This document shows positions 4,232 through 25,793 of a DNA stretch of 45,166 bases, one piece after another (the stretch's first letter is position 1; the number at the start of each line of letters is the position of its first letter). This DNA comes from Actinomycetota bacterium. GTDB taxonomy: Bacteria > Actinomycetota > Acidimicrobiia > Acidimicrobiales > CADCSY01. The notes under the pieces were generated by a model. The model saw only the letters and a program-made list of their open reading frames with translations, was not told where the DNA came from and did no database searches. Made by a program: the position numbers and the translations under genes. The stretch covers positions 1 through 45,166 of the forward strand of contig JAHWKL010000005.1 of the NCBI GenBank assembly GCA_019347915.1, written 5' to 3'.

Positions 4232-5647
4232 GTGGCCACTTCCGAAAGCTTCGACCTCATCGTCATCGGCAGCGGGCCCGGCGGCCAGAAGGCCGCCATC
4301 GCCGCCGCCAAGCTGGGCCGGCGCGCCGCGGTGGTGGAGCGCTCGCCCACCGTCGGGGGCGTGTGCCTGCACACCGGCACCATCCCGTCGAAGACCATGC
4401 GTGAGGCGGTGGTGCACCTGACCGGGCTCATGCAGCGGGAGATGTACGGGCAGAGCTACCGGGTCAAGGAGGAGATCACCGTCCAGGACCTCATCGCCCG
4501 CACCACCCACGTCGTCGAGCGGGAGGCCCACGTCGTGCGCGACCAGCTCGTGCGCAACCGGGTGGCGGTGCTGAACGGGACCGGCCGCTTCGTCGACCCC
4601 CACACCGTGGCCGTCCGTCGCCGAGAGGGCGACGAGCGGCTGCTGCGTGCTGAGCGCATCGTCATCGCCACCGGCACCCGCCCTGCCCGCCCGGCCTCGG
4701 TGGAGTTCGACGGCCGCACCGTCATCGACTCCGACAGCGTCATCAACCTCGAGCAGATCCCCTCCTCGCTGGTGGTCGTCGGCGCCGGCGTGGTGGGCAT
4801 GGAGTACGCCTCGATGTTCGCCGCCCTGGGCACCAAGGTGACCGTGGTCGAGCGGCGCGACCGCATGCTGGAGTTCTGCGACGCCGAGATCGTCGACGCC
4901 CTCCGCTTCTCCCTCCGCGATGTGGGGACGGTGTTCCGCTTCCGCGAGCACGTCACCTCGGTCGAGCGCCGCGGGGGGCAGGCCATCGCCACGCTGGCCA
5001 GCGGCAAGCGCATCCTCGCCGACGTCGTGCTCTACTCGGCCGGCCGCCAGGGCGTCACCGACGCCCTCGATCTTCCCGCCGCCGGGCTGGCCGCCGACGA
5101 GCGGGGGCGCATCGCCGTGAACGATCACTTCCAGACCGAGGTCGCCCACATCTACGCCGTGGGCGACGTGGTCGGGTTCCCCGCCCTGGCCTCCACCTCC
5201 ATGGAGCAGGGCCGCCTGGCCGTGCTCCACGCCTTCGGCCAGCCCGCTCCGCCGCTGAGTGACCTGGTCCCCATCGGCATCTACACCATCCCCGAGATCA
5301 GCTACGTGGGACGCACCGAGGACGAGCTCACGGCCGCCGCCGTGCCCTACGAGGTGGGCGTGGCCCGCTACCGCGAGCTGGCCTCGGGGCAGATCATCGG
5401 CGACTCGCACGGGCTGTTGAAGCTCCTCGTCTCCCCGGACGACCACACGCTCCTCGGCGTCCACATCCTCGGCGCCGGCGCCACCGAGCTGGTGCACATC
5501 GGCCAGGCGCTCATGGCCAACGGCGGTGGCGTCGACTACCTGGTGAACGCCGTGTTCAACTACCCCACGCTGGCCGAGGCCTACAAGGTCGCCGGCCTCG
5601 ACGCCGCCAACAAGATCCGGGCCCTCGCCTCGGTCACCGAGGCCTGA
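4232..5647 (+). CDS. sthA: Si-specific (soluble) NAD(P)+ transhydrogenase
   Basis: [42 protein letters not shown] (single-Cys SthA-type site), [17 protein letters not shown]. Confidence 0.9.
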
Positions 5648-5677: not shown

Positions 5678-5744
5678 GTTCTGGCAGCGAGAACGGCGCG
5701 AATTCCGACCTGTCGCGAATTCCGACCACTGCTGCTGCCAGAAC
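5678..5744. repeat. Inverted repeat GTTCTGGCAGC ... GCTGCCAGAAC with nested direct repeat CGCGAATTCCGACC x2; putative bidirectional terminator
   Basis: Arms 5678-5688 and 5734-5744 perfectly complementary (11 bp); loop holds a 14-nt direct repeat at 5697-5710 and 5714-5727; lies between convergent sthA and treZ. Confidence 0.8.
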
Positions 5745-5746
5745 GG

Positions 5747-7495
5747 CTACTGGGCCACCGAGGCGGGCCCGGTGATGACCACCGTGTCGGGCGGCAGGGT
5801 GGCGAAGCGGTCGTCGACCGAGACGGCATCGTCCGACGCCAGCAGCAGGACGGTGCCGGCGCCCTTCCCGAGGTCGAGCTTCTGGTCGGTGTCCCCCAGA
5901 TTGGCCGCCACCCGCAGCTCTCCGCGCTCGACGACCAACCACCGGGCCTGCTCGTCGTAGCGCACCCGCACCCCGTCCCGACGCCCGTCGCTGAACCCCG
6001 GCGTGCGCCGGCGCAGGGCGATGAGCGAGCGGTACCACTCGAGGACCTCGGCGTGCGGGGATCGCTCCAGCTCGTTCCAATCGAGTCTCGACCGCTCGAA
6101 GGTGGAGCGCTCCTGGGGGTCGGGCACCTCCTCGGCCGACCACCCGAAGGCGGCGAACTCCGAGCGCCGGCCCTGGCGGACGAGACGGCCCAGCTCGCGG
6201 TCCTCGTGGCTGGTGAAGTACTGGAAGGGAGTGGCGCTGGCCCACTCCTCCCCCTGGAAGACCATGGGGACGAAGGGCGCCGTCAGGTACAGCGCCGCTC
6301 CCACCTTCAACCTCCCCGTGGACAGGCTGGCTCCGATGCGGTCGCCCAGGGCCCGGTTGCCCACCTGGTCGTGGTTCTGCAGGTAGCCGAGGAAGGCCCA
6401 CCCGGGGAGCCCGGTCGGGGGGCGGCCGTGGGTGCGGCCCCGGGACGGCGCCCACCGCCCGGCATAGACCCACACGTCGGCCAGGGCGGTGGCCAGGTTG
6501 GCCAGGGCGCCGAAGTCGGCGTAGTAGCCCTCGTGCTCGCCGGTGAGGACGGTGTGCAGGGCGTGGTGGAAGTCGTCGCTCCACTGCGCGTCCATCCCGT
6601 AGCCGCCGACCGCCGGCGGGCGCACCACCCGGGGATCGTTGAGGTCCGATTCGGCGATGAGCCACAGCGGGCGGTTCTCGGTGGCGGCCAGGCCGGCCAC
6701 CTCGGTGGCGAGCTGCTCGAGGATGTGGACGGCCGAGGTGTCGACGATGGCGTGGACGGCGTCGATCCGTAGGGCGTCGACGTGGTAGTCGCGCAGCCAT
6801 CCCAGGGCGTTGTCGATCACGAACCGGCGAACCTCGTCGCTGCCCCGCTGGTCGAAGTTGACCGCCTGGCCCCACGGCGTGGAGTAGAAGGAGGTGAAGT
6901 AGGGGCCGAACCGCTCCAGGTAGTTCCCCTCGGGACCGAGGTGGTTGTAGACCACGTCGAGGACCACGCCGAGGCCCCGGGCGTGGCAGGCGTCGACCAG
7001 TCGCTTGAGCCCGTCAGGGCCGCCGTAGTCGCGGTGCGGGGCGTACAGGTCGACGCCGTCGTACCCCCAGTTGCGGCTGCCGGAGAACTCGGCCACCGGG
7101 AGGACCTCCACGGCGGTGACGCCCAGGTCGACCAGGTGGTCGAGGCGGTCGATGACGCCGTCGAAGGTCCCTTCCGGGGTGAAGGTGCCGACATGGAGCT
7201 CGTAGAGCAGGGCCGAGGGCAGGTGAAAACCACGCCAGCCCTGGTCGCCCCAGGCGAAGGCGTCGTGGTCGACGACCCGCGAGGGGCCGTGCACTCCCGA
7301 GGGCTGGAACGGCGAGCGGGGATCGGGCAGCGGCTCGGAGCCGTCGAGGCGGAAGGCGTAGTCGGTGCCGGGGCCGGCCTCGGGCACGTCGATCTCCCAC
7401 CAGCCCTGATCGGTCTCGCGCATCGGCACCGGTCGGTCGCCGCAGTCCAGCTCCACGCTGTCCGCACGGGGCGCCCACACCCGGAACGTGGTCAT
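5747..7495 (-). CDS. treZ: malto-oligosyltrehalose trehalohydrolase
   Basis: TTFRVWAPRADSVELDCG; DVVYNHLGPEGNYLERFGPYFT; ALRIDAVHAI; start 7495 or 7504. Confidence 0.92.
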   Translation of the reverse strand: MTTFRVWAPRADSVELDCGDRPVPMRETDQGWWEIDVPEAGPGTDYAFRLDGSEPLPDPRSPFQPSGVHGPSRVVDHDAFAWGDQGWRGFHLPSALLYELHVGTFTPEGTFDGVIDRLDHLVDLGVTAVEVLPVAEFSGSRNWGYDGVDLYAPHRDYGGPDGLKRLVDACHARGLGVVLDVVYNHLGPEGNYLERFGPYFTSFYSTPWGQAVNFDQRGSDEVRRFVIDNALGWLRDYHVDALRIDAVHAIVDTSAVHILEQLATEVAGLAATENRPLWLIAESDLNDPRVVRPPAVGGYGMDAQWSDDFHHALHTVLTGEHEGYYADFGALANLATALADVWVYAGRWAPSRGRTHGRPPTGLPGWAFLGYLQNHDQVGNRALGDRIGASLSTGRLKVGAALYLTAPFVPMVFQGEEWASATPFQYFTSHEDRELGRLVRQGRRSEFAAFGWSAEEVPDPQERSTFERSRLDWNELERSPHAEVLEWYRSLIALRRRTPGFSDGRRDGVRVRYDEQARWLVVERGELRVAANLGDTDQKLDLGKGAGTVLLLASDDAVSVDDRFATLPPDTVVITGPASVAQ

Positions 7496-7570
7496 GGCTG
7501 CCATCTTTGTCGATCGGGCCACCACCACGGTCGTGGCGGCGACGAGGGACAATGGTGAGTCAACGAAGCC

Positions 7571-18815: not shown

Positions 18816-18865
18816 GTTCTGGCCCCAGCAGCGGGACGTTTTCCCGGCGTTTCTGGGGCCAGAAC
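18816..18865. repeat. Inverted repeat GTTCTGGCCCCAG ... CTGGGGCCAGAAC; putative bidirectional terminator
   Basis: 13-bp perfect arms (18816-18828, 18853-18865); between convergent HMA and CDGSH genes. Confidence 0.8.
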
Positions 18866-25737: not shown

Positions 25738-25793
25738 GCCGTTCTGGCAGCAAGAACGGTGCGAAAAGCGCCCATTCGTGGGGCCAGAACGGC
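25738..25793. repeat. Inverted repeat GCCGTTCTGGC ... GCCAGAACGGC; member of the GTTCTGGC family
   Basis: 11-bp perfect arms (25738-25748, 25783-25793); left part 23/25 identical to the 5678 element; between convergent hemY and nasA-like. Confidence 0.8.

Follow-up and report, generated by a model that had tools for sequence, protein, structure and literature searches.

The analyzed window, i.e., the whole 45,166-nt stretch of DNA, holds three palindromic elements in all, the first of which fills the junction between the convergent genes sthA and treZ:

4232..5647, + strand, sthA, Si-specific NAD(P)+ transhydrogenase, left neighbour of copy 1, outside the element (NF003585, E 6e-199)
5678..5744, no strand assigned, palindrome copy 1, long form, 67 bp, consisting of a 50-bp element plus a 17-bp central duplication (model R1, 43.3 bits, E 8e-5)
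5697..5727, no strand assigned, duplicated centre of copy 1: CGCGAATTCCGACC (5697-5710), TGT, CGCGAATTCCGACC (5714-5727)
5747..7552, - strand, treZ, malto-oligosyltrehalose trehalohydrolase, right neighbour of copy 1, outside the element (TIGR02402, E 2e-232)
18816..18865, no strand assigned, palindrome copy 2, 50 bp, GTTCTGGCCCC...GGGGCCAGAAC (E 4e-8), at the convergent junction of a copZ-like gene and a small ORF beside a HelD/HelR-like gene
25741..25790, no strand assigned, palindrome copy 3, 50 bp, at the convergent junction of hemG and a molybdopterin oxidoreductase gene

An earlier note on this DNA had described 11-bp arms enclosing a 14-nt direct repeat between convergent sthA and treZ, and so it is: the arms are GTTCTGGCAGC (5678-5688) and GCTGCCAGAAC (5734-5744), and the family matches bear out both genes. 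The 25-mer that it had seen recurring at 25741 is present there with two mismatches (chance expectation 0.00), and the alternative local stem drawn within the left arm is real, half-palindromes being enriched family-wide (26% vs. 3% in shuffles). Copy 2, which was missed in that finding, has to be added, and copy 1 was not recognized as a 50-bp element lengthened by 17 bp: the 17 bp duplicated in its centre (CGCGAATTCCGACC-TGT) bring it to 67 bp, and taking away one 14-nt repeat and TGT leaves 50. Duplicated centres are likewise seen in two other long copies of the same genome (65 and 66 bp, L340 and L346). In the G001 assembly, ~100 consecutive N stand precisely at the place of the sthA/treZ hairpin (L371/L377, G001:C144:16200-16300), a kind of gap that strong palindromes often cause. 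The octamer GTTCTGGC has 10 matches vs. 1.45 expected; an uptake sequence was considered and dropped, as single octamers outside pairs number only 4 against about 1.5 expected.

The earlier note's description of a dispersed, non-coding, structured element is upheld by a covariance model search, which recovers at least 40 distinct copies, copy 1 among them, across the 2.7-Mb genome that the window comes from (“own genome” hereafter), by a covarying stem and by extragenic placement. The exact pattern GTTCTGGC-N15-45-GCCAGAAC occurs at 13 places of the own genome (0 for the reversed-pattern control), every one of them 50 or 51 bp long though 31-61 bp were allowed, and is present in 16 of the 59 genomes of the same order, mostly at 49-51 bp and with a lineage-specific, self-complementary interior (the single or odd-length matches in G006, G048 and G052 may be due to chance). 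The palindromes begin and end as (C/G)TTCTGGC...GCCAGAA(C/G), and these conserved ends are not solely an artefact of the search, because a search of one genome based on the interior (~30 copies, 18 distinct ones read with flanks) also recovers GTTCTGGC or one-base variants thereof in nearly all of the 18 that were read. In an alignment of 48 sequences, 84.5% of the cells of the 22-bp stem are paired (72% when shuffled, 31-45% when slid), and all 14 of the 14 variable stem pairs show compensatory changes (144 cells vs. 67 shuffled and 38-73 slid), while the 8 terminal pairs are invariant because the search pattern selected them. The predicted hairpins are strong, from -24 to -48 kcal/mol for most copies. 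A known RNA family was considered and dropped, no Rfam family matching in the window. The flanks of the palindromes are asymmetric in composition, with 46% C and 28% G on the left and 48% G and 26% C on the right (87 copies; loci of G000, G001, G002, G005, G011 and G021).

With genes called by a home-made codon-usage gene caller, the exact-arm copies lie at 24 convergent, 31 co-directional and 8 divergent junctions, with 5 at contig edges and 6 “inside” genes, at least one of which is a caller error (in G003, a nuclease gene on the opposite strand adjoins the element). Convergent junctions thus make up 24 of 63, compared with about 19% among all junctions, whereas 20 further own-genome copies found by the model, a less biased set, are mixed (8 co-directional, 6 divergent, 4 convergent, 2 intragenic). 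Among the classifiable own-genome copies, 31 of 33 (about 94%) are extragenic, the window itself being 93% coding. Convergent junctions are mildly favored, no more, and of the bidirectional terminator that the earlier note had offered for such junctions only a weakly supported version survives: the exact-arm counts lean its way, the model-found set does not, and the strict convergent-junction form had to be abandoned, contexts being too mixed. Copy 1 has no U-tract of a terminator; termination may be a side effect of the palindromes.

The other half of that proposal, a mobile palindromic unit, fared better, being supported by empty orthologous sites and by copies bracketing a nuclease gene. 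At the ispG-proS junction, a cassette is present in G000, in G001 (86% identical) and, with its gene broken, in G009, and the junction is empty in G006 and G010 by sequence and in G008 by alignment coordinates alone; in G010, a half-palindrome-like trace remains. The G011 junction orthologous to that of hemG (copy 3) has no palindrome. Such absence can mean either loss or that the element was never gained. There is no excess of 4-9-bp direct repeats, i.e., of target-site duplications, around 87 copies, and a Y1/RAYT transposase (PF01797) was found in 0 of 10 genomes, the own one included, control genomes being positive, and RAYT was set aside. Insertion into pre-existing terminator hairpins, an idea arising from copy 3, was also rejected: the complementarity of the flanks is no better than in shuffled pairs.

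The palindrome family finds its explanation in a partner nuclease gene, which the earlier note missed. One own-genome pair of palindromes about 1 kb apart (C144:14561/15587) flanks a gene for a 302-aa protein, a pair in G005 (C70:42323/43393) flanks the gene of a protein 49% identical to it, and another own-genome pair, on C180, encloses a remnant of the nuclease gene (score 201 vs. a baseline of at most 69). The N-terminal region of the protein is an AbiEi-like winged-helix region (PADLOC AbiEi, E 1e-25), followed by a nuclease domain of Vsr/DUF559 type assigned to MTES_1575 and DUF559 in 28 and 25 of 39 homologues, respectively, with conserved E, D, ExD, H, D and R residues. An AlphaFold model of the same-genus homologue L248 (pLDDT 91) matches the folds of AbiEi (6y8q, E 5.5e-6) and of the homing endonuclease I-Bth0305I (3r3p, target TM 0.75), and a profile search independently reaches 3r3p (E 9e-5), Vsr and PvuRts1I. 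Several Toxoplasma mitochondrial ribosome proteins also match the model weakly (TM 0.2; ranks 3-11), perhaps via PD-(D/E)XK-like RAP domains. The cassettes, at ~1.05-1.2 kb, have space for the nuclease gene alone; no AbiEii (DUF1814) toxin gene lies beside it, the neighbours at L103, L114 and L115 being ordinary host genes as judged by eye. The own genome has another AbiEi-nuclease gene, L146 (G000:C243:7588-8490), with a palindrome of different sequence, CCCGTTCTTTGTCGG...CCGACAAAGAAC, on either side.

The gene is bracketed by palindromes, and gene and palindrome are cognate. Of the 59 genomes of the order, 38 have the gene family, as have 50 of 150 genomes drawn evenly from the phylum, with up to 15 copies per genome. 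A matching ~50-bp repeat lies on both sides of 60 of the 81 genes from 25 genomes of the order (58 at a stricter threshold), as opposed to 12 of 1528 mismatched cross-genome pairings (2 at the stricter threshold), 4 of 254 other genes of the same genome and 1 of 65 neighbouring and window genes. The matched segments are not all strong palindromes: by gapped self-alignment score, the 99th percentile of random windows is surpassed on at least one side in 27 of the 60 and on both sides in 13 of the 60, and about a quarter of the nuclease genes in the order have no recognisable palindrome pair. Phylum-wide, flanks match at 19 of 29 loci (null 1/812), these loci coming from distinct genomes nearly all outside the order, with the exception of G017 and same-order loci in G145, G167 and G186. 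Named organisms contribute 39 loci, including Microbacterium, Mycolicibacterium, Bifidobacterium, Tessaracoccus and Gulosibacter, their null (17/1020) being inflated by near-identical strains. The arms differ between nuclease genes within one genome, each gene having its own palindrome. Palindromes diverge faster than the proteins, so that co-evolution can be seen only where the proteins are more than about 50% identical; an overall correlation of palindrome similarity with protein identity was rejected (Spearman 0.02).

In the complete genome G013, one gene sits among tandem palindromes spaced 62 bp apart, and a few weaker copies occur at other places. Regularly spaced tandem palindromes, reminiscent of REPIN clusters, bracket some of the nuclease genes (L166-L172, L141, L156, L244), and Bifidobacterium (L309, L312) and Microbacterium (L295-L304) show the same combination of gene and repeats, the repeats there being long and multi-unit (TTTGGGGCGTCAACTTCCCG; CCGAGTGCACGG). 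G002 has an abundant palindrome family (L025-L038; GTTCTGGCAGGG; GTTCTGGCAGGGAAAACCGGAC...) with no cognate nuclease gene among its genes with readable flanks; this is either an orphan family or one whose gene lies in an assembly gap.

The palindromes probably serve, in our judgment, as the scattered binding/end sites of a selfish system with two parts, one of which would be the AbiEi-nuclease and the other its own ~49-51-bp palindrome, with inverted half-sites of ~22-23 bp around a short centre. The known target of AbiEi is a pair of 23-bp inverted repeats with 3 bp between them, a double site of 49 bp, which agrees with the fixed 49-51-bp length of the palindromes; in the pairs bound by its homologue Rv2827c, the distance is 13 bp (PMC7319586 for both proteins). 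Two protein molecules would accordingly occupy the two half-sites, the long forms of the palindrome being putative wider-spaced double sites, and the fused nuclease might cut at or near the palindrome. The nuclease would thereby drive the spread, with the palindrome-gene-palindrome cassette or, more often, lone palindromes reaching intergenic DNA by copying or recombination, in the way that REPs do with RAYTs; transposition-like copying and homing are the two leading forms that this spread might take. Against this, the upstream palindrome could also be simply an autoregulatory operator. The whole is best read as a selfish system that resembles REP/RAYT but relies on an unrelated nuclease, apparently an undescribed kind of genetic element. 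With somewhat less assurance, we favor the view of a mobile element found throughout the phylum Actinomycetota, in which a ~50-bp operator of the AbiEi type has come to serve an AbiEi-Vsr nuclease as its site for transposition or homing, the dispersed palindromes and the many orphan “DUF559” proteins each supplying one half of a single selfish system with no homology to REP/RAYT.

Were the palindromes mainly bidirectional U-less terminators or hairpins at mRNA 3' ends, maintained by selection and alike through recombination, one could understand why 24 of the 63 exact copies are convergent, why many directly follow stop codons and why the hairpins are as strong as they mostly are (-24 to -48 kcal/mol). 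This is improbable, however, given the divergent and few intragenic copies, the length fixed at 49-51 bp with ends common to the copies and the missing U-tract, and it leaves the bracketing of one gene family by gene-specific sequences unexplained. Just as improbable, in our view, are operators of an AbiEi-type autorepressor, whose upstream copy would regulate the gene, with the dispersed copies as a regulon and the nuclease acting elsewhere, e.g., in phage defence: the 23+3+23 bp geometry of the AbiEi operator and the copy near the start codon upstream of most genes are in line with it, but a copy of equal quality is also found downstream of the gene, and many solo copies sit after stop codons or between convergent genes, where there is no promoter to act on. 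Palindromes that are REPs or MITEs of an unseen classical transposase, with the nuclease gene as a passenger, would also be dispersed, hairpin-forming and extragenic; with the Y1 transposase absent from 10 genomes, with no target duplications, and with an AbiEi-nuclease being the bracketed gene again and again across classes, each time with its own palindrome, this is the least credible of the alternatives.

Homing, which is a variant of the best explanation and does not exclude it, is possible, if rather unlikely as the account of the whole: the nuclease would cut solo palindromes, the cassette would be copied in by double-strand-break repair, and solo copies would result from cassette loss by recombination between palindromes. 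The nuclease fold is nearest to the homing endonuclease I-Bth0305I, the repeat pair is what recombination would need, and there is the remnant gene inside the C180 pair. Homing alone, however, is insufficient for the multiplication of the palindromes, because the solo copies (at least 40, against 1-2 genes in the own genome) far outnumber the genes and, except for C180, have no gene remnants near them.

No report of the association of gene and palindrome was found in the open literature searched, subscription papers and preprints being outside that scope, and none of the REP papers covered describes RAYT-linked repeats in Actinomycetota. If true, the proposed system would provide a function for a multi-copy nuclease family of “unknown function” (DUF559/MTES_1575) as well as for the palindromic repeats of Actinomycetota, and would represent REP-like biology built on an unrelated enzyme; Microbacterium, Bifidobacterium and Mycolicibacterium are culturable hosts in which it could be tested.

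Among known systems, the closest parallel is that of REP/REPIN repeats with RAYT (TnpA-REP) transposases (PMC3116915, PMC3733652, PMC8266576), which shares the dispersed extragenic palindromes in tens of copies, the bracketing of a nuclease gene with one repeat family per gene, the tandem or doublet arrangements and the alternative local hairpins. The nuclease here, however, is AbiEi plus Vsr/DUF559 (PD-(D/E)XK-like) and not an HUH/Y1 enzyme, the palindromes are 49-51 bp long and have no GTAG (20-40 bp with GTAG at the hairpin foot in REPs), and the system is found across Actinomycetota. The AbiE type IV toxin-antitoxin (AbiEi antitoxin, PDB 6y8q) provides the N-terminal fold and an operator of the same length as the site, but here there is no AbiEii toxin gene in the cassette, the AbiEi part is fused to a nuclease, and sites are also found downstream and genome-wide. 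The EDxHD/Vsr-type homing endonucleases (I-Bth0305I, PDB 3r3p) are alike in the fold and motif of the catalytic domain; in contrast to those residing in introns or inteins, the gene here is free-standing, intergenic and bracketed by palindromes. Alleles both with and without the cassette exist (ispG-proS junction). MITEs are likewise short and non-coding with terminal inverted repeats, but the present elements are near-perfect hairpins of fixed length with no target duplication and no link to a DDE transposase found, and they differ from intrinsic terminators in that no U-tract follows the hairpin. The system would thus work in a REP/RAYT-like manner and yet not be a member, because RAYT is absent (10 genomes), GTAG is lacking and the enzyme is unrelated. 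Were kinds defined by anatomy alone, it could fall under REP/RAYT; we set it as a kind of its own, since none of its components has a homologue in REP/RAYT and its full set of parts is not seen in any known family.
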